DNA from: Ferruginibacter sp.
Lineage (GTDB): Bacteria > Bacteroidota > Bacteroidia > Chitinophagales > Chitinophagaceae
Direction of reading: 5' to 3'
NCBI GenBank assembly: GCA_025352625.1
Contig: JANXSR010000162.1
Coordinates: forward strand, 1 to 39,575
DNA: 39,575 nucleotides
Below the pieces are notes generated by a model that worked only from the letters and a program-made list of their open reading frames with translations, was not told where the DNA came from and did no database searches. Positions 3,505-39,557 of this stretch are shown in pieces. Made by a program: the position numbers and the translations under genes. Positions within the stretch are counted from its first letter, which is position 1. Each line of letters begins with the position of its first letter.

Positions 3505-4440
3505 ATGCTTAGTAGAGTTGCTGATAGTTTATACTGGATGAGCCGTTACATGGAAAGAACAGACGGCATTTTGCGCATGCTTAAAATTAACTACGCCTCT
3601 TCGCAGGATGATGTGCAGGCTTTCTCCTGGAAACCGGTACTAAAAATTTTTACTTTTTTAGAAGAAGAGCGTGCAAATGCCATGGCACATGATACAAGGG
3701 GTGTTTTACAATACATGGTAATTGGAAAAGACAATCCAAACTCTGTGTTGAATATGGTTACTCATGCAAGGGAAAATGGCAGGAGTGTACAGGACCATAT
3801 TACCAAAGAAATGTGGCAATGCCTGAATGATTTTTACCACACAGTGCGGCAGGAAGAGTTGGCAAATTGGTTACAAAAAGACGATCCCATTACCATTTTG
3901 GATATGCTTATTAAACATGGCGTTTTATATTTTGGAACCACCGACATTACCATGGCAAGGGGTGAGGGTAATTCATTTATAAATATGGGTAAATATCTTG
4001 AAAGGGCTGTTCAGTCGGCGGATATTTTAGATGTAAAATTTAGTGATGTTAATTATGATATGGATGTAACTACCGACACTACGTATTGGAAATATTTACT
4101 CTTGTCCATATCGGGTTACGAACTCTATTTAAAAACCTACCGCGGTGGTTTTGAAGCCATCAATGTGGTGGGGCAGGTTGTTTTAAATGATCAGTTTCCC
4201 CGTTCGGTATTGTATTCAATTAACCGGCTGCACCGCTATTTTGAACGGCTGAAAAGCGAAAGAAATGTGGCTGATTTTAACCAGATAGATTTTATGATCG
4301 GCAAAATAAAAAGCAAAGTAAAATACTCAACCCCCGATTCTATTATAGAGGAAGGCCTGCATGAATTTTTAACTGAAACCAAAAATGAACTCTTTGCAAT
4401 TGGAAAAACACTGAGCAAAAATTATTTTGCTTACACCTAA
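3505..4440 (+). CDS. Alpha-E domain-containing protein (DUF403)
   Basis: This is an all-helical alpha-E (DUF403) protein of 311 residues from ATG 3505. The canonical N-terminus MLSRVADSLYWMSRYMERTD begins at that ATG, so I prefer it to the TTG 30 bases upstream (3475). Other family segments are FINMGKYLERAVQSADILDVKF in the middle and QFPRSVLYSINRLHRYFERL toward the C-terminus. It lies 139 bp after the ATP-grasp gene and 75 bp before a transglutaminase-like gene. Comparative work on amidoligases links this domain to COG2308 ATP-grasp enzymes, but no biochemical activity is established. A role as partner in making or processing a small peptide tag is inference from context. Confidence 0.92.
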   Translation: MLSRVADSLYWMSRYMERTDGILRMLKINYASSQDDVQAFSWKPVLKIFTFLEEERANAMAHDTRGVLQYMVIGKDNPNSVLNMVTHARENGRSVQDHITKEMWQCLNDFYHTVRQEELANWLQKDDPITILDMLIKHGVLYFGTTDITMARGEGNSFINMGKYLERAVQSADILDVKFSDVNYDMDVTTDTTYWKYLLLSISGYELYLKTYRGGFEAINVVGQVVLNDQFPRSVLYSINRLHRYFERLKSERNVADFNQIDFMIGKIKSKVKYSTPDSIIEEGLHEFLTETKNELFAIGKTLSKNYFAYT

Positions 4441-4515
4441 ATCAATAAGCGCTATTTTTTATGTCCCGCTTGTTGATTAACAAATTAAATTATACTTGCT
4501 TAAGAAAAACTATTT

Positions 4516-5493
4516 ATGCCTAGATTTATTATACACCATGTTACCAAATATACTTACCAGGAACCTGTAAGAGATAGTGCCAACCAGATTATGCTTTTTC
4601 CTATAAAAGATGAATACCAGGAAGTTCAAAGCCAGCAGTTAAATATTACGGATGAGCCTGCAGTAGAAATTTTTACTGATTATTATGGTAATGAAACCGG
4701 ATCGTTTATGCACATTGAACCGCATACTGAATTGTTAATAGATTCAACGATTGCAATTATTACCAAAGCAAAAATATTACCGGCTGATGATATTGCCATT
4801 GAGGAGCAATGGAACCATTTGTATCAGATAAGGCATGTGGTACCTTTTATTGATTTTTTAAAGCAGGAAAATTTTGTAGCATTGGACGAAGTAAAGAAAA
4901 TTGCAGATGCTGGTTTTTATAAATCGGTTTCTGTTTTTGTAGCTGTACAGCAACTGAACACTTATGTGTACCAAAATTTTAAATATATCAAAGGCATTAC
5001 AAGTGTAGAAACCACGCTGGATGAAATATGGAAGTTAAGGGCCGGCGTTTGCCAGGATTTTGCCCATATTTTATTGGTAATGTTACGGCTGCTTGGTATT
5101 CCGGCAAGGTATGTAAGCGGCTATGTTTGTCCACATGATAATAACCTGCGTGGCGAAGGTGCCACACATGCCTGGGTAGAAGCCTACATTCCTTTTTATG
5201 GATGGCTTGGTCTTGACCCTACCAACAATTGTATTGTAAATGACCTGCATGTTCGATTGGCAATTGGAAGAAATTTTAGCGATTGTTCTCCTGTAAAAGG
5301 AACTTACAAAGGCACCGCCAAACAAGCGCTTGAAGTTGGGGTATCTGTTTCGCACGAAGATGGAACAGTGGCTAAACAGGTGGCTGCAGTTTTAATGCCG
5401 CAGGTGATTACCGTAAAATTAAATGAAGATGGAACCATTAATAATTCTTACAGAAAATACATGGAGATGGTGCAACAACAACAGCAGCAGTAA
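4516..5493 (+). CDS. Transglutaminase-like cysteine peptidase/amidase, third gene of the ATP-grasp cassette
   Basis: The 325-residue protein has the bacterial transglutaminase-like N-terminal domain (MPRFIIHHVTKYTYQEPV) and a papain-like core. The predicted triad is Cys179 in AGVCQDFAH, His218 in GATHAWVEAY and Asp234 in LGLDPTNN. Family members usually hydrolyse or transfer amide bonds. Next to an ATP-grasp ligase and an alpha-E protein it may release or trim whatever those proteins make. There is no signal peptide, so it is probably cytoplasmic. A -7-like TATACTTG at 4491-4498, with TTG 18 bases upstream, could give it its own promoter. The C-terminus is a short polyglutamine run, probably from CAA/CAG slippage. 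The neighbour 3 bp downstream is convergent. Confidence 0.9.
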   Translation: MPRFIIHHVTKYTYQEPVRDSANQIMLFPIKDEYQEVQSQQLNITDEPAVEIFTDYYGNETGSFMHIEPHTELLIDSTIAIITKAKILPADDIAIEEQWNHLYQIRHVVPFIDFLKQENFVALDEVKKIADAGFYKSVSVFVAVQQLNTYVYQNFKYIKGITSVETTLDEIWKLRAGVCQDFAHILLVMLRLLGIPARYVSGYVCPHDNNLRGEGATHAWVEAYIPFYGWLGLDPTNNCIVNDLHVRLAIGRNFSDCSPVKGTYKGTAKQALEVGVSVSHEDGTVAKQVAAVLMPQVITVKLNEDGTINNSYRKYMEMVQQQQQQ

Positions 5494-5496
5494 TTT

Positions 5497-5928
5497 TTAA
5501 TTTATTTCTTCGTTGCTTTCTTCGCTCTCGTATCCTGGCAGTCTTTCTGTTTCGTAACCGCAATTGCCGCATTGATATACGTAATCTGTTGCCAGTGCAT
5601 AGCTGCCAAACAGGGTAGTGGTTACGGCGGTTAAAAAATTAGTAACGCCAGGTTTAGCAATATAACTAAACTGGTGGGCACCACATTGCGGACATGTTGC
5701 TGCGTTCAAATATTCTTCATCATATCGTTTTAATATTGCGGTAACGGCACCTTCATCTTCTTTTTTTACAATGAGTTTTATGCCCCCGATAGCATTGGTT
5801 AAAATGGGGTCCATCGTTATGGTGGCTTCATCTTTTAAATAACATTCAACGCCATCCGATTGTAAACGACCCAATATTATATTGGCTAAAAAATAACTGT
5901 CGAATGTTTTAACGGTAACTAATTCCAT
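5497..5928 (-). CDS. DUF2007-domain protein with C-terminal zinc ribbon
   Basis: The 143-residue protein starts with a DUF2007 (putative signal-transducing) domain: MELVTVKTFDSYFLANIILG, then DGVECYLKDE and GGIKLIVKKEDE over residues 1-65. A four-cysteine zinc ribbon follows, with CPQC near residue 79 and CGNC near residue 120. Between the two CxxC pairs lies a hydrophobic segment that could be a membrane hairpin or simply buried. Function is unknown. It lies 62 bp downstream of kdnB, and kdnB's terminator hairpin occupies most of that gap. It therefore either depends on readthrough or has a promoter overlapping the hairpin. Confidence 0.8.
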   Translation of the reverse strand: MELVTVKTFDSYFLANIILGRLQSDGVECYLKDEATITMDPILTNAIGGIKLIVKKEDEGAVTAILKRYDEEYLNAATCPQCGAHQFSYIAKPGVTNFLTAVTTTLFGSYALATDYVYQCGNCGYETERLPGYESEESNEEIN

Positions 5929-5944
5929 AAAGGAGTTTTTTTAT

Positions 5945-5981
5945 AAAATAAAAAAGGAGTTGTTAACTCCTTTTTTATTTT
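5945..5981 (-). terminator. Intrinsic terminator after kdnB
   Basis: A 17-bp inverted repeat (5945-5961 and 5965-5981) with a 3-base loop has a GGAGTT/AACTCC core and A/T-rich flanks that give a U-run on the minus-strand transcript. It lies 9 bp after the kdnB stop codon. Confidence 0.85.
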
Positions 5982-5990
5982 AATTTTCAA

Positions 5991-7064
5991 TTACAATCTT
6001 TCATATAATTTCCTAAGCGTTGTTCTGGTAATTTGTTGCTCCCAGTTTTTACCAAGGGCATTTTCCCATAGCGGTTTCATCCCAAGCGAAACATCAATCA
6101 TTTTATCAAACTCTTCGTCGCTAAGGTTTGCACAGATATTTTTTGGCAGGTCAATGTGATTTTTTTCCACCATGTATTTAAACTCTTTTACTCCTTCGGG
6201 ATAATATGCTTCCAGGTGATTGAACACAATGCAATTACCTATTCCGTGTCTTGTACCAAGTAAATAACTCAATCCATAACTCACCGCATGTGCAACGCCA
6301 ACCTGGCTGTAAGCAATACTCATACCGCCGGCGTAAGAAGCCATCATTAATTTGTCATCACTTTCAGCATCCCAGCCATCTTTATTCACATATACATCTC
6401 TGCAAAGTTGCAATGCCTTTTCGCCATAGCTTTTACTAAACTCATTTAGGTAAGTTCCGGTAAGGCTTTCAATACAATGTATATAACAATCCATTCCTGT
6501 ATAAAAACGTTGGTTGGCAGGGGCATTGGCTGTTAATTCTGGGTCTAAAACTATTTGATCAAACGGTGTAAAATCTGAGTTCATACCCAGTTTTTTTGTT
6601 GGTCCGGTTAACACTGTTGTGCGACTTACTTCTGCACCGGTACCACTTAATGTTGGTATGCCGGCTTTGTAAACGCCCGGTTGTTTTACCAAATCCCATC
6701 CCTGGTAATCTGCACTGCTGCCGGGATTGTTCATCATCAGGGATACGGCTTTTGCCAAGTCCATGGCAGAACCGCCTCCAATACCAATTACTCCACTTAT
6801 TGTTCCGAATTCGTCTTTTAAATCGTTGGTAAGGTTGTCTACATAGGTTGTCTTGGGTTCGTTGGTTACATCAACAAAAATGATTTTGTCTTTTGCCCGC
6901 AATGGAACCCTTGCGGCAAGCGGTTTACCTTCAAAAAAATGATCTACTAAAAAAATCATCGGGGCTTCGCCTTTACGGTTGGGCTGCAATATTTCGTCTA
7001 ATTGATTGAAAGCGCCACGGCCGTAAATAACGTAGCCAATCATTTTAAAGTTTCTAAAATTCAT
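5991..7064 (-). CDS. kdnB: Iron-type alcohol dehydrogenase, KdnB-like (3-deoxy-manno-octulosonate 8-oxidase)
   Basis: The 357-residue group III Fe-ADH most resembles KdnB, which oxidises the C8 hydroxyl of Kdo before amination by KdnA to give Kdo8N. The dinucleotide-binding loop is GIGGGSAMDLAKA at residues 94-106. Predicted metal ligands are Asp192 and His196 (MDCYIHCIES), His259 (VAHAVSYG) and His273 (TRHGIGNC). The short length, the N-terminus MNFRNFKMIGYVIYGRGAFN and GIPTLSGTGAEVSRTTVLTG are what I recall of KdnB rather than of ethanol or butanol dehydrogenases. kdsB, the enzyme of the following activation step, is on the same strand 4.2 kb away. No aminotransferase (KdnA) is visible in the window. 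The Fe-ADH assignment is firm; the substrate is a good inference. Confidence 0.8.
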   Translation of the reverse strand: MNFRNFKMIGYVIYGRGAFNQLDEILQPNRKGEAPMIFLVDHFFEGKPLAARVPLRAKDKIIFVDVTNEPKTTYVDNLTNDLKDEFGTISGVIGIGGGSAMDLAKAVSLMMNNPGSSADYQGWDLVKQPGVYKAGIPTLSGTGAEVSRTTVLTGPTKKLGMNSDFTPFDQIVLDPELTANAPANQRFYTGMDCYIHCIESLTGTYLNEFSKSYGEKALQLCRDVYVNKDGWDAESDDKLMMASYAGGMSIAYSQVGVAHAVSYGLSYLLGTRHGIGNCIVFNHLEAYYPEGVKEFKYMVEKNHIDLPKNICANLSDEEFDKMIDVSLGMKPLWENALGKNWEQQITRTTLRKLYERL

Positions 7065-7191
7065 TTTGCAAATTTCTTAAAAATACACCATATGGCGACA
7101 AACAATTTTTGGCAAAGTGGTTTATGGATTTAAAAGCAAAAGAAAGAGAGGCAAAGATGATCCACGTGGCTGTTGCTTTAGCCAGACAGTT

Positions 7192-7872
7192 TTATTTTAT
7201 CAAAGCCTCAATATCTTCGTCGCCATCAAGGTTATTCATTTGTCGAATAATTTCATTGTAGCGGTTTCCAACATATGAACTTAGTGGTTTTACCGTATAA
7301 ACTTTTGGATTAGGTAACGATGCTGCTATCATTGCCGCTTCTGCCCTTGTAAGGTTTTTGGCATCCTTATTAAAATAGGCTTTTGATGCGGCTTGTACAC
7401 CAAATATTCCTTTGCCCATTTCCGCCACATTTAAATACATTTCTAAAATGCGCCTTTTACTCCATACCTTTTCAATCATAAAAGTAAAATATACCTCTAG
7501 CCCTTTTCTAAATAAGCTTCTTCCCTGCCATAAAAAAACATTTTTTGCTACCTGCTGGCTAATGGTACTTGCTCCACGCACTTTGGTCACATGTTTTTTA
7601 TTGTAGTTCATAGCCTTTTTAATGGCTTTAATGTCAAACCCATTGTGGTCGGGAAATAATTGATCTTCGCTTGCCATCACCGCCAGTTTTATATTAGGGC
7701 TCATTTCATCGAGCGAAATATAATCTCTATGTAACCCGTTTCCTTGTAAAAGACTTGCTGTTTGTGTAAGTGTGATCGGGGGATTTATCCATTTACAAAA
7801 AATTATATAAATAAACTGTAAAATAAAAAGCCACAATAAACCTTTTTTAAAAATGCGCCAGGCTTTTTGCAT
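7192..7872 (-). CDS. mtgA: Monofunctional peptidoglycan glycosyltransferase
   Basis: The 226-residue protein is a single GT51 domain behind one N-terminal membrane anchor (residues 11-26, LLWLFILQFIYIIFCK). It polymerises lipid II into glycan strands at the periplasmic face. The catalytic Glu69 lies in ASEDQLFPDHNGFD. The other GT51 motifs follow in order: RGASTISQQVAKN (99-111), RKGLEVYFT with KRRILEMYLN (about 122-148), and AAMIAASLPNP. There is no transpeptidase domain, which separates it from bifunctional class A PBPs. The length is normal for MtgA. It lies 34 bp downstream of a same-strand hypothetical gene. Confidence 0.93.
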   Translation of the reverse strand: MQKAWRIFKKGLLWLFILQFIYIIFCKWINPPITLTQTASLLQGNGLHRDYISLDEMSPNIKLAVMASEDQLFPDHNGFDIKAIKKAMNYNKKHVTKVRGASTISQQVAKNVFLWQGRSLFRKGLEVYFTFMIEKVWSKRRILEMYLNVAEMGKGIFGVQAASKAYFNKDAKNLTRAEAAMIAASLPNPKVYTVKPLSSYVGNRYNEIIRQMNNLDGDEDIEALIK

Positions 7873-7906
7873 AGGATAACCGCTTAATTTTTATGCAATA
7901 TACTGC

Positions 7907-8461
7907 TTACGGTTTTTTATTATTAGATACACCAACATAAACCAATGAATATTTTTTTCCTATTACCATTCCCTTACCGTTTAGCTTGGCCATCATGTAA
8001 CCAATCCCTCCTAAAGCCACCGCACCAATCATTAGCTGGGGACTAAATTTTTCTCTGTCCGCAACATAAACCACAGCACTTGCTATGGTAAGTAATGCTC
8101 CGCCGCCCATCAATGCTGCAGCACTACCGGATACATTAAATTTTCCACCCGCTTTGCCAATGGCTTTTATTTGGTTATAATGGTATTGATACCTGTAGCT
8201 GGCAACGGTATCCAGAACATACACTCCTAAAGTGGTGGGTATTTGTTGTATTACAAACTGCCGCAGAAAAAGAGAGTCATTCTTTATTTGCGTAATCAAC
8301 GCTTCGATATAACTGCCTTGCTCATTTGTGAATGATATGTTGCTGCCGGCATAATATGTTCCGATAGTTTTGTGATTTTTTTTAAATAAAATAAAATCTG
8401 CCGACTGGCTAAAAAGATGTTGGCCAATAATAAGAGAAATGATAAACAATGTTGGCTTCAT
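7907..8461 (-). CDS. Hypothetical exported or membrane protein
   Basis: I do not recognise this family. From the preferred ATG at 8461 it has 184 residues, and the N-terminus MKPTLFIISLIIGQHLFSQS looks like a signal peptide. A longer TTG start at 8479 would put six residues in front of that signal. After a polar region of about 95 residues come two hydrophobic stretches, ALMGGGALLTIASAVVYVAD and MIGAVALGGIGYMMAKL. These probably form a membrane hairpin near the C-terminus. It sits between the LysE-type exporter and mtgA on the same strand with short gaps (45 and 34 bp), so co-transcription is likely. No functional motif is evident. Confidence 0.7.
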   Translation of the reverse strand: MKPTLFIISLIIGQHLFSQSADFILFKKNHKTIGTYYAGSNISFTNEQGSYIEALITQIKNDSLFLRQFVIQQIPTTLGVYVLDTVASYRYQYHYNQIKAIGKAGGKFNVSGSAAALMGGGALLTIASAVVYVADREKFSPQLMIGAVALGGIGYMMAKLNGKGMVIGKKYSLVYVGVSNNKKP

Positions 8462-8506
8462 ATTGTAAAGTAAAAACAACTGGTGATAAAAAAGGAAAAC
8501 GATTCG

Positions 8507-9139
8507 TTAATGTTTAAGGTTTGAATAAAATACACCTATGATTAACACAGCTCCAAATACAAGAAGTATCAATCCGGAAATTTTATTTATAAGCGAAATG
8601 TTTTTTTCGTTTAGTTTGGTTCTAAGTTTTCCTGCTAACACAACTTTTAAAATATCGGAGGCGCCATTTAAAATAAGACAGGTAGTGAAAATTACAATCC
8701 GCTGATTAATGGTGTGTGTAGCGGCAAGGGCGGTTGCTGTAGTAAGCCAAAAGAACATTAGAGCCGGGTTTAACGTATTGATAAAAAAGCCGGAAACAAC
8801 CAATTTGGCATGTGTTCGGGCTGTAATTACAATCTTGTTTTCATCTTCCTTAATATGTATTTTTTTAAAGAAAAGATAATAGACCCCCATCGCAATCAAG
8901 AAAAAACTACCGGTAAGTCCAATTGCTATTTTAAAATCCATCAATTGAGACACCCATTCTGTAAAAACATTGCTTACTATTGCCAATAACAAATCGCTAA
9001 GCCAAACGCCGGCAACAAAACTTAAACCTCCAACCCTTCCATTATTAATACTTTGCTTAATGATGGTGAATATAACTGGACCTACTGTAAATATCAGCAA
9101 CAGGCTAACGGCAAAACCTTTTAATAAAGCTTCAATCAT
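8507..9139 (-). CDS. LysE/RhtB-family amino acid exporter
   Basis: The 210-residue, six-helix membrane protein has the N-terminal LysE-family signature: MIEALLKGFAVSLLLIFTVG, a P at the end of helix 1, then IKQSINNGRVGGLSFVAGVW. A second typical segment is FINTLNPALMFFWLTTATAL in the middle. Family members export amino acids or related small molecules. The substrate cannot be read from sequence. The start is ATG at 9139. It lies 66 bp after the DUF2480 gene on the same strand. Confidence 0.85.
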   Translation of the reverse strand: MIEALLKGFAVSLLLIFTVGPVIFTIIKQSINNGRVGGLSFVAGVWLSDLLLAIVSNVFTEWVSQLMDFKIAIGLTGSFFLIAMGVYYLFFKKIHIKEDENKIVITARTHAKLVVSGFFINTLNPALMFFWLTTATALAATHTINQRIVIFTTCLILNGASDILKVVLAGKLRTKLNEKNISLINKISGLILLVFGAVLIIGVFYSNLKH

Positions 9140-9205
9140 TAATAAATAAATGAAATAGAAAGATGTAAGGTGAAGATAAAAAATAAAGCCGACGGATGAA
9201 ATTAA

Positions 9206-9712
9206 TTACTTCTTTTTATAAATTGGCACAGTACTACAGGGTTCTCCATACATAATACTTTTAACAAAAGGCCTTAGTAATTTAGTTGCCTGTAAATAAG
9301 CCGCTTCGCCAACCGGAATTTCGCCACATCCTTTTATTACCACCCTTTTATCCGCAAAGTCTGCAACAGGAATTTTTGAAATATTTTTTAACAACATGCA
9401 ATTTTTTAATTCTTCGGCTGTGCCAAATGCAACTTCTTTTACTATGGGTTGCAGGTAACTTGCTGCCAGCATGTAGGCCCACATTGGTATTACTGCATCT
9501 GCACTACATGTTACTGCCACTGTTTTGCCAGCATAAATTGAAAGATCAAGATTTTTTAGACTTTCTCTAAAATCTTTTTCTTTTAAAATAAGACCCATAA
9601 AAAGATAATCCTTCATATCGAAAATAGCTATTTCTTCCATTGGATAAAATTCTTCCAAATCCAACGTTACAATGCCGCTTTCACTTACCTTGTTTACAAA
9701 TATTTCTTCCAT
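9206..9712 (-). CDS. DUF2480 family protein
   Basis: This is a cytoplasmic protein of 168 residues from ATG 9712, in a family (DUF2480) found mainly in Bacteroidota with no known function. Recognisable stretches are MEEIFVNKVSESGIVTLDLE at the N-terminus, YLFMGLILKEKDFRESL, AVTCSADAVIPMWAYML in the middle and VVIKGCGEIPVGEAAYLQAT near the end. An in-frame start 45 bases upstream is possible, but its extra residues look non-conserved. There is no membrane segment or signal peptide. Confidence 0.85.
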   Translation of the reverse strand: MEEIFVNKVSESGIVTLDLEEFYPMEEIAIFDMKDYLFMGLILKEKDFRESLKNLDLSIYAGKTVAVTCSADAVIPMWAYMLAASYLQPIVKEVAFGTAEELKNCMLLKNISKIPVADFADKRVVIKGCGEIPVGEAAYLQATKLLRPFVKSIMYGEPCSTVPIYKKK

Positions 9713-34686: not shown

Positions 34687-36054
34687 ATGGCAGAAAAACC
34701 AACCCCGGCAATTCCTGATTCATCTTCTAATCTTAAAAGAACACTCGGCCCTTTAATGCTGTGGGGTCTAGGCGTTGGGTATGTTATTTCAGGAATGTAT
34801 TTTGGCTGGAACCTTGGCCTTCCTGTTGGTGGTACCCTGGGGCTTGCCATCGCTACTTTCTTTATCATCATCATGTATATAACCTTTACTTTTTCTTATA
34901 CGGAATTGGCTTGTGCTATTCCAAAAGCCGGTGGCGTTTTTGATTATGCCACCAGGGCCATGGGAAAAGATATTGGCTTTATCGCTGGCATGTCACAGAT
35001 AATAGAATTTGTGTTTGCACCGCCAGCCATTGCTGCTGCCATTGGTGCTTACTTTCATATTTTTTTGCCACAGTTTTCGGTTACCTCAATTGCCATTGTA
35101 GCGTATATAATTTTTACCGGGCTGAATATGTATGGTGTAAAAGCAGCCGCCACCTTCGAACTTATCATCACAGCTTTCGCAGTGTTTGAACTGGTTTTAT
35201 TCAGTGGCGTTACGTTGCCACATTTTCATTGGTCAAACCTTACACAAAATGCTTTCCCCAACGGATGGATGGGTGTATGGGCTGCGATACCTTTTGCTGT
35301 ATGGTTTTTTCTTGGTTTAGAAGGCGTGGCCAATGTAGCAGAAGAAACCATCAACCCACAAAAAAATGTGCTCAAAGGTTTTGGCTCTGCATTGATCACA
35401 CTGATCATTTTATGTGCCCTGGTATTCATCTCTTCTGTTGGCGTGGGAGGGTGGGAAAAAGTAGTATTTCCAACGCCGGGTGCAGAAGCATCAGATTCTC
35501 CGCTGCCAATGGCGCTGTCACAAATAACAGGCAACAGCGGCTGGTTGTATCACCTGTTAATTACAATTGGCTTAATGGGGCTGGTTGCTTCTTTCCATGG
35601 ATTGATACTGGCGGCAAGCCGTGCCACGTATGAGTTTGGCAAGACGGGTTGTATCCCTGTCATCTTCGGTAAAATACATCCAAAATTTAAAACACCTGTC
35701 AATGCATTGTTGTTGAACATGGCCATCGGCATCATCGCTTTGTTCACAGGCAAAACGGGTGATATCATTACCATTGCAGTGTTTGGTGCCATTGCATTAT
35801 ACATCTTTGCCATGATCGCTGTATTGAAATTACGAAAAACAGAACCGGATCTGGCAAGGCCATTCAGGGTGCCCATGTTTCCTTATTTTCCAATCACAGC
35901 GTTGGTGATCGCAGTAATTTCTATGGTCGCAATGATTACACTCAACCTGAAATTAGCCCTGATCTTTTTTGCTATACTTGTACTTGCTTATATTTGGTTT
36001 CATTTTATTGTAAAACAAAAAACAGATGTCCAATCAACCACTCTCAAAGGATAA
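34687..36054 (+). CDS. APC-family permease, ethanolamine permease type
   Basis: The 455-residue, roughly 12-helix protein matches the ethanolamine permease group (TIGR00908-like) of the APC superfamily. Landmarks are LKRTLGPLMLWGLGVGYVIS and GMYFGWNLGLPVGGTLGLAI in the first two helices, and WFFLGLEGVANVAEETINPQ in the middle. ASFHGLILAASRATYEFGKT and NALLLNMAIGIIALFTGKTG follow. Its last 29 bases overlap the start of a glutamine-synthetase-like gene, so the two are translationally linked. The context of ligase, dehydrogenase and gamma-glutamyl hydrolase supports uptake of ethanolamine or another small amine. The exact substrate is inferred. Confidence 0.87.
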   Translation: MAEKPTPAIPDSSSNLKRTLGPLMLWGLGVGYVISGMYFGWNLGLPVGGTLGLAIATFFIIIMYITFTFSYTELACAIPKAGGVFDYATRAMGKDIGFIAGMSQIIEFVFAPPAIAAAIGAYFHIFLPQFSVTSIAIVAYIIFTGLNMYGVKAAATFELIITAFAVFELVLFSGVTLPHFHWSNLTQNAFPNGWMGVWAAIPFAVWFFLGLEGVANVAEETINPQKNVLKGFGSALITLIILCALVFISSVGVGGWEKVVFPTPGAEASDSPLPMALSQITGNSGWLYHLLITIGLMGLVASFHGLILAASRATYEFGKTGCIPVIFGKIHPKFKTPVNALLLNMAIGIIALFTGKTGDIITIAVFGAIALYIFAMIAVLKLRKTEPDLARPFRVPMFPYFPITALVIAVISMVAMITLNLKLALIFFAILVLAYIWFHFIVKQKTDVQSTTLKG

Positions 36055-37399
36055 AGTGCTGCAGCTATTGGCAGAACAAAACACTGAAAAAGTAAAACTG
36101 GCTGTTACTGATATCGATGGAATCCTGCGTGGTAAAATGATCAGCTACGAAAAATTTGTTTCCATTGTAGAGAAAGGTTTTGGTTTTTGTAATGTGGTAT
36201 TTGGCTGGGATGCCGGAGATGTGGCGTACGATAATAGTGAGTACACGGGCTGGCATTCGGGTTATCCGGATGCAACCGCAGCAATTGATCTGAATACTTT
36301 TCGCCAGATCCCCTGGGATAATGATACGCCTTTTTTTCTGGCAGATTTTCGTGACAGTAAAGGAAACGACCTGGCTGTTTGTCCACGCAGTTTATTAAAA
36401 AAAATTATTAAACAGGCAGGCGACAAAGGCTACACGCCTTATTTTTCACAGGAGTTCGAATGGTTTAATTTGATAGACAACACAGAACAATTGTATGCAG
36501 GAAAATTCAGGGATACAAAACCGATGACGGAAGGTATGTTTGGTTATTCTTTGCAACGGGCTTCACAAAAGAATGATTATTTTAATGACCTCTTTACTTT
36601 GCTGAAAAAATTTGGTGTACCGATTGAAGGCCTGCACACAGAAACAGGCCCGGGTGTGTACGAAGCTGCCATCACTTATTCAGAAATACTTGAAGCGGCA
36701 GACAGGGCCGTGCTTTTTAAAAGCGGTACCAAACAAATTGCATACAACCATGGTGTGATAGCTACTTTTATGGCCAAGTTCAATGAAAGTTTACCGGGAT
36801 GCAGCGGCCATGTTCACCAGAGCTTGTGGAGTACAGCAAAAAAACAAAATCTTTTTTACGATAAAAATAAAGCAACAGGGATCAGTTCGTTAATGGAAAG
36901 TTATATGGCAGGCCAACTGGCTTGCCTGCCATTTATACTGCCTATGTTTGCACCCACAGTTAACAGTTACAAGCGTTTGGTAGAAGGCGCCTGGGCGCCA
37001 ACCACATTAACCTGGGCAATTGACAACCGAACAACCGCTTTGCGTGCTTTACCGGCCAGCAGTAGTTCAACAAGATTGGAAACAAGGGTAGTTGGCAGCG
37101 ACAGCAATCCTTACCTGGCAATGGCAGCCTGCCTTGCTGCAGGGTTGTATGGCATTAATAACAAACTGAAATTAAAAACACCTGCAACAGTAGGCAATGG
37201 TTATGCAGATAAAAAGAACGGAACCTTGCCAAAAAATTTGTGGGAAGCTACGCAGGCAATGAAAACGTCACCCATTGCAAAAAAACTATTTGGAGCAGCA
37301 TTTGTTGAACATTTCACCGCAACAAGAGAATGGGAGTGGAGGCAATTTTCAAAAGTGGTTACCGATTGGGAGTTGAAAAGATACCTTGAAATAATTTAA
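36026..37399 (+). CDS. Glutamine-synthetase-like gamma-glutamyl-amine ligase
   Basis: The 457-residue protein has the GS fold but resembles PuuA/GlnA4-type ligases that attach glutamate to amines. The short beta-grasp region includes AVTDIDGILRGKMISYEKF. The catalytic region reads LHTETGPGVYEAAITYSEIL, then SGHVHQSLWS, PTVNSYKRLVEGAWAP and STRLETRVVGSDSNPYLAMA. Metal-binding and phosphate-binding residues of GS are therefore present. It overlaps the permease gene by 29 bp. Likely reaction: ATP + glutamate + amine (ethanolamine candidate) to a gamma-glutamyl amide. Ordinary glutamine synthesis is less likely given the gene context. Confidence 0.88.
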   Translation: MSNQPLSKDKVLQLLAEQNTEKVKLAVTDIDGILRGKMISYEKFVSIVEKGFGFCNVVFGWDAGDVAYDNSEYTGWHSGYPDATAAIDLNTFRQIPWDNDTPFFLADFRDSKGNDLAVCPRSLLKKIIKQAGDKGYTPYFSQEFEWFNLIDNTEQLYAGKFRDTKPMTEGMFGYSLQRASQKNDYFNDLFTLLKKFGVPIEGLHTETGPGVYEAAITYSEILEAADRAVLFKSGTKQIAYNHGVIATFMAKFNESLPGCSGHVHQSLWSTAKKQNLFYDKNKATGISSLMESYMAGQLACLPFILPMFAPTVNSYKRLVEGAWAPTTLTWAIDNRTTALRALPASSSSTRLETRVVGSDSNPYLAMAACLAAGLYGINNKLKLKTPATVGNGYADKKNGTLPKNLWEATQAMKTSPIAKKLFGAAFVEHFTATREWEWRQFSKVVTDWELKRYLEII

Positions 37400-37631
37400 A
37401 GAATAAGTTGCCATTAGGCGTTAAGATGTTTTTTGGGCCGGGCAAATACAGCAGCTATGTGCATCTTCATTGGCGTCGCACTCTTTTACTTTTTCAGCTA
37501 CTTGGTACGCTTCCCAAATTGAGAGTGCTTAGGGGAGGCGAAATAAGAACAGGGAATAAAACAATAATAAAAAAGATTCGTGATGACCCGTTTCATCCGT
37601 GTTTCTATCAAAAGAAAAATAATAAAAAACC
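37400..37631 (+). other. 232-bp noncoding spacer inside the gamma-glutamyl cluster
   Basis: The neighbours on either side overlap, yet this gap separates the ligase and dehydrogenase genes. A 75-codon TTG-started frame spans it but has unconvincing composition. The segment about 37437-37505 resembles part of the spacer upstream of the permease (about 34474-34540), so it may be a decayed repeat. Confidence 0.4.
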
Positions 37632-38783
37632 ATGACAGATTTTAATACCGTAAGACAATTTAATTTTCCAACTATCATTCGCTTTGGAGCAGGTGCCATA
37701 AAAGAATTACCCAATCATTTACTGGCCAACGGCTTAAGCAGGCCATTGATCGTTACCGACCCAATGGTAAGCGGCCTGGATTTTTTTAAGGCAATAAAAG
37801 AAAGTCTTACTGCAAAATCAATTTCAGTAGAAGTGTTTTCAGAGATTCACAAAAACCCGGTGAAGAGCGATGTGCTGAAAGGAGGAGATGCCTTTAAAGC
37901 AACCAACAGGGATTGTATCATCGGTATTGGCGGTGGCGCAGCAATGGATGTGGCTCGTGCAATTGTGTTGCGCATTAATCATCACCGCGACCTGTTTGAT
38001 TATGATGACCTGATTGGCGGCGATCAGTATGTAACAGAAGATGTTCCTTATTTCATCACCGTACCAACCACCAGCGGCACAGGAAGCGAAGTGGGAAGAA
38101 GTGCCATTATTTCGGAAGATGATACGCACCGTAAAAGAATTTTATTTGCGCCCAAGCTGATGGCAAAGATCGTTTTTGCAGATCCTTTGCTTACAATGGA
38201 ACTACCTCCATTCATCACCGCCGCAACAGGCATGGATGCATTAACACACAACATGGAAGCCTATATCGCAAAGAACTTTCACCCGATGGCGGCAGGGATT
38301 GGCCTGGAAGGAATTTCTCTGATCAACGAATCAATTGTTAATGCGGTAAACAAACCCGATCTGGCATCAAGAAGCAAGATGATGATCGCTTCGCTGATGG
38401 GTGCTGTTGCTTTTCAAAAAGGGCTTGGTGTAGTGCATTCACTTGCGCATCCTTTGTCTTCTTTGTTGGATACACACCATGGTTTGGCCAATGCGGTAAA
38501 CCTGCCATATGGTATGCGTTTTAATGCACCGGGGTTGGAAACTGAATTTAAAAGAATGGCACTGACAATGGAGCTGGGCGAAACAACCGGCGAAGCAGTA
38601 GTGAACCATTTGTTTGAATTAAATAAGCAACTTGGTCTGCCGACAAGGCTAAGGGATATTGGTGTAAAAGAAGAACACATTGAAACCCTGAGCGACCTGG
38701 CATTGGCAGATTTTTGTCATCCCAACAATCCCAAACCCGTAACAAGAAATGATTTTAAACAATTGTATACAGAAGCGTTGTAA
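37632..38783 (+). CDS. Iron-type alcohol dehydrogenase of the gamma-glutamyl cluster
   Basis: The 383-residue group III Fe-ADH has the NAD(P)-binding loop GIGGGAAMDVARA (98-110) and VPTTSGTGSEVGRSAII. Predicted metal ligands are Asp202 and His206 (MDALTHNMEAY), His269 (VVHSLAHPL) and His283 (DTHHGLANA). The gene is separated from the ligase by 232 bp but overlaps the following hydrolase by one base. In this cluster it may oxidise the hydroxyl of a gamma-glutamyl amino alcohol to the aldehyde. It is clearly distinct from the KdnB-like Fe-ADH at 5991-7064. Confidence 0.92.
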   Translation: MTDFNTVRQFNFPTIIRFGAGAIKELPNHLLANGLSRPLIVTDPMVSGLDFFKAIKESLTAKSISVEVFSEIHKNPVKSDVLKGGDAFKATNRDCIIGIGGGAAMDVARAIVLRINHHRDLFDYDDLIGGDQYVTEDVPYFITVPTTSGTGSEVGRSAIISEDDTHRKRILFAPKLMAKIVFADPLLTMELPPFITAATGMDALTHNMEAYIAKNFHPMAAGIGLEGISLINESIVNAVNKPDLASRSKMMIASLMGAVAFQKGLGVVHSLAHPLSSLLDTHHGLANAVNLPYGMRFNAPGLETEFKRMALTMELGETTGEAVVNHLFELNKQLGLPTRLRDIGVKEEHIETLSDLALADFCHPNNPKPVTRNDFKQLYTEAL

Positions 38784-39511
38784 TGAATGAACCTATAATA
38801 AAAATTGGTGTAACCTATACCGGAACAGACGAAAAACATAGCAACTATGTGCGTTGGCTAAAGGGCAATGAACACATAGAAATTACCACTTTATCACCCC
38901 TTCACACAGACCTTGAAAGTATTAAAGATTTTGATGGTATCCTATTGTCAGGTGGTGTTGATATGCATCCGAAATTTTATAACAGCACTGTTACTGATTA
39001 TCCAAATGCACCACAACATTTTCATGAAAAAAGAGATGAATTTGAAATAGCGGTTTTTCAAAAAGCACAACAAAATAATATTCCGGTGCTGGCAGTGTGC
39101 AGGGGGATGCAAATGGTAAACTGCATACTGGGAGGAAATTTAACACAAGACATTGGCCCGGAAGCAAACGGCATTCATAAGTTTGAAAACCATGATAAAG
39201 GGCATGGAATAAATATTGTGCCTGCAACATTGTTGAATGAAATAACAGGAGTTGACAGAACCATGACCAACAGTGCCCATCACCAATGTATCAATAACCT
39301 GGGCGAAGGTTTGTTGGTCAATTGCCAATCAGATGATGGTATTGTAGAAGGTATAGAATGGGAACACAAAGAAAATAAGCCCTTCTTTTTAGGCATACAA
39401 TGGCATCCGGAAAGAATGTACAAATTTCATTTGAACGAATTGCCGGCAACAAAAAATATCAGGGACCGGTTTATAAAAGAGATAAAAATATCAGGTAAGG
39501 TAACATCGTAA
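38783..39511 (+). CDS. Gamma-glutamyl hydrolase, class I glutamine amidotransferase-like (PuuD-type)
   Basis: The 242-residue peptidase C26-type protein has the nucleophile Cys106 in VLAVCRGMQMVNCILGG and the His208/Glu210 dyad in GIQWHPERM. DGILLSGGVDMHPKFY supplies the oxyanion region, and NSAHHQCINNLGEGL is typical of the PuuD group. PuuD releases GABA from gamma-glutamyl-GABA. Here the substrate may be a gamma-glutamyl amino acid made by the upstream enzymes. Its ATG overlaps the dehydrogenase stop codon (TAATG). A long hairpin begins in its own stop codon. Confidence 0.9.
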   Translation: MNEPIIKIGVTYTGTDEKHSNYVRWLKGNEHIEITTLSPLHTDLESIKDFDGILLSGGVDMHPKFYNSTVTDYPNAPQHFHEKRDEFEIAVFQKAQQNNIPVLAVCRGMQMVNCILGGNLTQDIGPEANGIHKFENHDKGHGINIVPATLLNEITGVDRTMTNSAHHQCINNLGEGLLVNCQSDDGIVEGIEWEHKENKPFFLGIQWHPERMYKFHLNELPATKNIRDRFIKEIKISGKVTS

Positions 39512-39557
39512 AATTCATGGTGAGTCACCCCCAAAGGGTGACTCACCATGAATTTTA
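39509..39557 (+). terminator. Long perfect hairpin at the end of the gamma-glutamyl cluster
   Basis: A 22-bp perfect inverted repeat (39509-39530 and 39536-39557) surrounds the loop CCAAA. The left arm begins in the stop codon of the hydrolase gene. The arm core is CATGGTGAGTCACCC and the 3' arm ends in TTTT. It is long enough to be a palindromic repeat unit as well as a terminator. Confidence 0.75.

Follow-up and report, generated by a model that had tools for sequence, protein, structure and literature searches.

The window analysed here is 39,575 nucleotides of Ferruginibacter sp. DNA and corresponds to one entire contig (C367:1-39575) of an assembly of 480 contigs that is about 93% complete. 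Four genes near its end encode a putative ethanolamine permease (Eat-type), a glutamine synthetase (GS)-like ligase, an iron-type alcohol dehydrogenase (Fe-ADH) and a hydrolase of the Peptidase C26 family. We propose that these four genes, together with an aldehyde dehydrogenase (ALDH) gene, form an ethanolamine catabolic operon that does not depend on ammonia-lyase, and we assign this reading a probability of roughly 0.7. The case is built by sequence comparison, from the five genes themselves, their conserved order and linkage, a gene fusion, co-occurrence across genomes and the conservation of catalytic residues.

In the proposed pathway, the Eat permease would import ethanolamine and the ligase would couple it, at the expense of ATP, to the gamma-carboxyl group of glutamate, giving gamma-glutamylethanolamide. 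The Fe-ADH would oxidise the hydroxyl group of this compound to an aldehyde, the ALDH would convert the aldehyde to gamma-glutamylglycine, and the C26 hydrolase would release glycine and regenerate glutamate. The initial annotation of this DNA had read the four window genes as import, glutamylation, oxidation and hydrolysis, and both the five-gene set and the existence of the ALDH that this scheme predicts are consistent with it. A ligase, an alcohol-oxidising enzyme, an ALDH and a hydrolase are found together, with the ALDH of the window genome on a separate contig, and the linked permease is assigned to an ethanolamine transporter family (TIGR00908). We infer the substrate and product, as well as the direction and order of the steps. 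Ethanolamine as the substrate, suggested in the initial annotation along with related amino alcohols, is supported by the permease family, by alternation with EutB among relatives and by a gene logic that matches published ethanolamine operons.

Conservation of the five-gene set

As the initial annotation had proposed, gene order was surveyed in relatives. We compared the best 80 of at least 571 confirmed relatives (named loci) and 48 ligase loci among 195 genomes of the window's family (survey loci); some species are common to the two sets, which total 128 loci, and neighbouring genes were called up to 6 kb from the ligase. Permease, ligase, ADH, hydrolase and ALDH all share a strand at 70 of the 128 loci (45 of 80 named, 25 of 48 survey), and their order is identical in all 70. 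Among loci with at least 1.5 kb of upstream and 5 kb of downstream sequence, the complete set is present in 40 of 54 named and 21 of 37 survey loci. The 45 complete named loci include 20 labelled Chitinophagaceae and 14 labelled Sphingobacteriaceae. The shared gene order exceeds chance.

Some loci carry additional genes. Six Pedobacter loci (L058, L063, L064, L068, L072 and L082) have genes of three families immediately 5' of the permease and co-oriented with it; one member of each was scanned, and these are FecR, SusC/TonB-receptor-like and SusD-like, which may point to the uptake of a larger compound across the outer membrane. An extra open reading frame (ORF) of 138-141 amino acids, perhaps not the same gene in each case, separates ligase and ADH in L070, L073 and L081. 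A family of about 148 amino acids is found 3' of the ligase in L042, L044, L046, L047 and L050, and one scanned member matches PF06541.

The aldehyde dehydrogenase probably lies beyond the contig end

The aldehyde-to-acid step had been noted as missing from the window, with a search downstream and elsewhere proposed. In relatives, the ALDH is found 3' of the hydrolase: the two occur together on the ligase strand in 49 of 80 named loci, as separate genes in 44 and fused in 5. In the nearest relative, L003 (96% ligase identity), the ALDH start overlaps the hydrolase stop and the protein matches PF00171 (Pfam, 435 bits). The window genome encodes an ALDH that is 96% identical to the L003 query over query residues 8-453, and this copy stops precisely where contig C373 ends. 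Because the ALDH follows the hydrolase in relatives and the genome's own copy sits at a contig end, the absence of ALDH from the window is best read as an assembly break. The predicted ALDH is therefore present in the genome, outside the window.

Locus L003 and a second locus, L004 (95% ligase identity to the window), are two contigs of the Ferruginibacter metagenome-assembled genome LF-bin-269, each with the operon, and reflect either a duplication or a mixed bin. Directly 3' of the hydrolase stop, window positions 39513-39553 form a perfect inverted repeat with 18-base arms and a 5-base loop, followed by TTTT. The genome contains no further full copy (allowing as many as 2 mismatches in each arm), and the repeat is not in L003. 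It could act as a terminator-like element separating hydrolase from ALDH, or it could have caused the assembly to break.

Fusion, catalytic residues and linkage beyond adjacency

Hydrolase and ALDH are a single ORF in 12 loci (5 named, 7 survey; 649-706 amino acids, the shortest clipped by a contig end), and 9 of the 70 complete loci carry this fusion. A quick ALDH tree with 72 rows implies five or more changes in fusion state, three of them forced by starred branches, and these may be gains or losses. All 72 rows compared (71 loci plus the window, with L003 in place of the window for ALDH) keep the presumed catalytic residues of ADH, hydrolase and ALDH. These residues include the Asp/His positions of the Fe-ADH, which we take from the motif to be metal ligands, and Cys106, His208 and Glu210 of the hydrolase, presumably its catalytic triad.

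We searched 11 genomes whose ligase locus is incomplete, representing L037 and 10 of the 14 named loci that are incomplete despite flanking room (L014, L029, L032 and L078 were left out). All 11 encode the ADH (69-90% identity), which in L035, L057 and L070 is located at the ligase locus itself. The ALDH (59-83% identity) and the hydrolase (44-69% in ten genomes, 33% in one) were also detected in all 11, and by coordinates the hydrolase is always within 0.5 kb of the ALDH. EutB was found in none of these 11 genomes. A control, covering ADH alone, used 22 genomes that lack the cluster: in 18 no ligase reaches E ≤ 1e-120, and 4 have a GS-only ligase. No ADH orthologue was detected in any of the 22, and 5 carry a distant Fe-ADH of 30-34% identity.

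Genes of the window

The ORFs and family scans agree with the four genes and families originally assigned (Table 1). The reported overlaps are also present; permease and ligase ORFs overlap by 29 bases, and ADH and hydrolase ORFs have 1 base in common.

Table 1. Candidate ethanolamine genes of the window, with family matches and proposed functions.
Product	Length (aa)	Coordinates	Strand	Family	Proposed function
Eat-type (APC superfamily) permease	455	34687..36054	+	TIGR00908	Putative ethanolamine importer
Glutamine-synthetase-like ligase	457	36026..37399	+	PF00120	Putative gamma-glutamylethanolamide synthetase
Iron-type alcohol dehydrogenase (Fe-ADH)	383	37632..38783	+	PF00465, PF25137	Putative gamma-glutamylethanolamide dehydrogenase
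Peptidase C26/class-I glutamine amidotransferase-fold hydrolase	242	38783..39511	+	PF07722	Putative gamma-glutamylglycine hydrolase

The permease scores 442 bits against the 'ethanolamine permease' model, above the curated cut-off of 381.75. The hydrolase, initially called PuuD-type, does belong to the C26/PuuD superfamily (154.7 bits, cut-off 20.5) but is not PuuD itself, as it scores 64.8 bits against the PuuD equivalog (cut-off 266). The ligase falls below the cut-off of all four NCBIfam models that it matches (GS and PuuA types), including GlnA (233 bits, cut-off 429) and the gamma-glutamylputrescine synthetase PuuA (212.7 bits, cut-off 650). Equivalogy to PuuA and PuuD was rejected on these scores. 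For the Fe-ADH, the top-scoring NCBIfam model is 4-hydroxybutyrate dehydrogenase, under its cut-off. The genome also encodes a second GS-family gene, of 699 amino acids. As to the reported lack of EutB and EutC, no EutB match was found in the window genome, within the limits of its completeness, and EutC was not searched for.

A permease family shared with EutB loci

Of the 195 family genomes, 48 match the ligase at E ≤ 1e-120 and 29 contain EutB. We defined cluster genomes, after viewing the loci, as those whose ligase locus also holds a permease or an ADH gene (n = 33). None of these 33 is among the 29 EutB genomes, where 4.9 are expected (hypergeometric P 0.003; Fisher 0.0055). Ligase and EutB do occur together in 5 of the 195 genomes, and all five ligase loci are without permease and ADH.

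We fetched 20 EutB loci from the 29 genomes. In 19 of them, a same-strand permease that is 40-45% identical to the window permease lies upstream of EutB, with an intervening opposite-strand ORF call in one case. Two EutB-linked permeases were checked against TIGR00908 and both pass its cut-off. On a quick permease tree (even-numbered loci with a permease of more than 400 amino acids, plus the window), 20 EutB-linked permeases (the 19 and one from Azospirillum) and 47 ligase-linked permeases form two separate groups. Since EutB loci and ligase loci use related permeases, a single permease family seems to supply one or the other of two pathways.

A paralogous GS-like ligase occurs in a trio with a protein of about 350 amino acids and a HAD-IIA phosphatase (L140, positions 4702-8347; L134; L143; L145-L152). 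Two members of the 350-residue protein have no Pfam match, and one of them also has no NCBIfam match. The trio is found in EutB-bearing genomes, and Fe-ADH is lacking in all three such genomes checked. On a Streptomyces plasmid (L180, positions 3544-9300), genes for a permease and for a divergent GS-like ligase lie just before tgmABC, ATP-grasp genes for a ribosomally synthesized and post-translationally modified peptide.

Phylogeny and residues of the ligase

In a tree of 53 rows, the window ligase groups with Bacteroidota ligases and a proteobacterial group (support 100/100). A second clade (99/97), of Csal_0679 type, comprises the ligases of Paracoccus, Ruegeria, Aminobacter, Thermomicrobium, Embleya, Arthrobacter and a Streptomyces. 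Trees uniting this clade with all 36 Bacteroidota rows (approximately unbiased test, p-AU 5e-7) or with the permease/cluster-type rows alone (p-AU 2e-5) were rejected, the groups having been defined after the tree was viewed. In line with this, the Ruegeria ligase matches the solved structure of Csal_0679 (5dm3) with 801 bits and the window ligase with 251 bits. Because the window ligase falls outside the Paracoccus/Ruegeria group, its substrate cannot be transferred by orthology. It shares 30% identity with PuuA and 40% with the protein annotated as IpuC in Paenarthrobacter aurescens, whose position in the tree has weak support (88/44).

At the column corresponding to GlnA Glu327, all 72 rows have Trp. 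So does IpuC, and PuuA and the Paracoccus/Ruegeria ligases likewise have an aromatic residue there. PMC11335346 describes the amine ligase NpaA1 as having both the GS Glu-flap residue and Asp50 replaced. With Trp at the Glu327 column and Asp at the Asp50 column, the window ligase thus bears out half of such a residue argument. An AlphaFold2 model of the ligase has the GS fold (mean predicted local distance difference test score, pLDDT, 81), with pLDDT below 50 at residues 59-79, which include the Asp50-column Asp. In structure comparison of this predicted model, Csal_0679 appears as the top match by Z, tied with ordinary GS.

Alternative explanations

Several observations weigh against ethanolamine catabolism as proposed here. 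Fourteen of the 54 named loci with flanking room do not have the full one-strand set, and NCBIfam cut-offs are missed by ligase, ADH and hydrolase and, among the 25 models listed for it, by the ALDH. The window ligase shares about 34% identity with the Paracoccus/Ruegeria ligases and clusters apart from them, and it retains the Asp at the Asp50 column. The EutB exclusion is modest, given the post hoc cluster definition and the relatedness of the genomes, and is not seen over all ligase homologues. Finally, three genera (g7, g53 and g65) hold cluster and EutB types in different species.

The same chemistry might act on another primary amino alcohol, such as 3-aminopropanol (giving beta-alanine) or N-methylethanolamine (giving sarcosine). 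The placement of the ligase outside the Csal_0679-type clade, the best model for the Fe-ADH and the limited identity of the permease to EutBC-linked permeases would all fit such a substrate. We nevertheless consider it unlikely, as the permease passes the ethanolamine-permease cut-off, the cluster and EutB never overlap among relatives, and a permease of the same equivalog lies beside a sister-clade ligase in Photobacterium.

A pathway of Puu type, directed at putrescine or a different diamine and with some other role for the Fe-ADH, is very improbable. While ligase and hydrolase are in the PuuA and PuuD superfamilies, the five conserved genes include no amine oxidase, both proteins score far below the corresponding equivalog cut-offs, and identity is low for the ligase and for the permease (22% to PuuP). 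We give still less credence to an Ipu-like scheme, in which a simple alkylamine or amide is glutamylated, the hydrolase frees an amino alcohol or amine, and the dehydrogenases act after release. The resemblance to IpuC in identity and in the Glu327 column speaks for it; against it, the five conserved genes include no oxygenase, the tree placement of IpuC is weak, and the hydrolase-ALDH fusion suggests that these two enzymes act in succession. An ordinary ammonia-assimilating GS with unrelated neighbours is scarcely credible despite the GS catalytic domain and fold and the retained Asp, given the second GS-family gene, the missed GlnA cut-off, the Trp at the Glu327 column and the conserved gene order.

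Significance of the proposed ethanolamine route

Based on these comparisons, the conserved set probably lets soil Bacteroidota use ethanolamine, oxidised to glycine via glutamate tagging. Ethanolamine is one of the main head groups of bacterial membranes, and its turnover therefore matters in soil and water. If our interpretation is correct, it names an ammonia-lyase-independent ethanolamine route in Bacteroidota, provides a function for five gene families that so far have generic names, and offers a case in which two unrelated pathways substitute for each other downstream of one family of transporters. Since carriers of the cluster include named isolates of Pedobacter, Flavihumibacter and Chitinophaga, the idea is testable.

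Comparison with known systems

EutBC catalyses cobalamin-dependent ammonia-lyase chemistry. EutBC loci with Eat have a related permease and presumably the same substrate as the window set, yet EutB and the cluster never occur in the same genome of the 195-genome sample. The Puu pathway of Escherichia coli follows the logic of glutamylation, oxidation and hydrolysis. Its PuuA and PuuD share superfamilies with the window ligase and hydrolase, whereas the window set has an Fe-ADH in place of the annotated amine oxidase PuuB.

A close published parallel is the ethanolamine operon of Phaeobacter sp. MED193, whose proteins are described in PMC10132767 as raised on phosphorylethanolamine; for the cases of Chromohalobacter and Agrobacterium, that paper refers to Vetting et al. 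2015. The operon of Phaeobacter and Chromohalobacter salexigens, as given there, encodes the TRAP transporter EtoVWX, ETAGA, GAADDH, GETADH and GGAH, and the four reactions proposed for it are the same as those proposed here. The Paracoccus locus has the layout of the published MED193 operon (RpiR regulator, hydrolase, TRAP, ligase, ALDH, ADH), and the Ruegeria locus has it from the hydrolase onward. Both loci hold a GS-like ligase, an ALDH and an Fe-ADH, from which we infer that GETADH is an Fe-ADH. This type differs from the Bacteroidota set in its transporter (TRAP rather than Eat permease), its hydrolase (in Paracoccus of the N-formylglutamate amidohydrolase family PF05013 rather than C26), its ligase clade (Csal_0679/ETAGA-type) and its gene order.

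The GlnA4 cluster of Streptomyces coelicolor (SCO1610-1615), according to PMC6529630, includes a GS-like ligase, an ALDH and a glutamine amidotransferase (GATase), and a putative ethanolamine permease is reported there for other Streptomyces. The alcohol step is assigned in that text to a predicted short-chain dehydrogenase, in contrast to the Fe-ADH of the window. The actinobacterial look-alikes of Embleya and Arthrobacter U41 fall in the Csal_0679-type clade; GlnA4 (SCO1613) itself was not a tree row. As the pathway has already been proposed for Chromohalobacter, Phaeobacter and Streptomyces, it is known in kind.

Clusters on plasmids of Photobacterium and Legionella lytica have ligases of the sister clade (41-43% identity), with an Fe-ADH, an ALDH and a class-I GATase, in gene orders other than that of Bacteroidota. 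In Legionella lytica the order is ligase-ALDH-FeADH-GATase, and the GATase, annotated 'GMP synthase', matches PF00117 with no C26 match, unlike the window hydrolase. In Photobacterium GJ3, a TIGR00908 permease (553 bits) accompanies the ligase, ALDH and Fe-ADH, and its GATase is related to the Legionella one. This gene association, in another phylum, supports the ethanolamine reading.

No description of a Bacteroidota version was found in the open-licence literature searched. What is new here is the phylum, the ligase clade, the C26 hydrolase and the hydrolase-ALDH fusion; transporter and gene order differ as well. We see about even odds for a reading in which gamma-glutamylation of ethanolamine was put together on two or more occasions, with GS-like ligases and hydrolases of different kinds. 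Bacteroidota and, with a sister ligase, Photobacterium and Legionella would then carry the second version; there it would take the place of EutBC from one genome to the next, with permeases of one family serving both, and would have yielded, perhaps repeatedly, a bifunctional hydrolase-ALDH.

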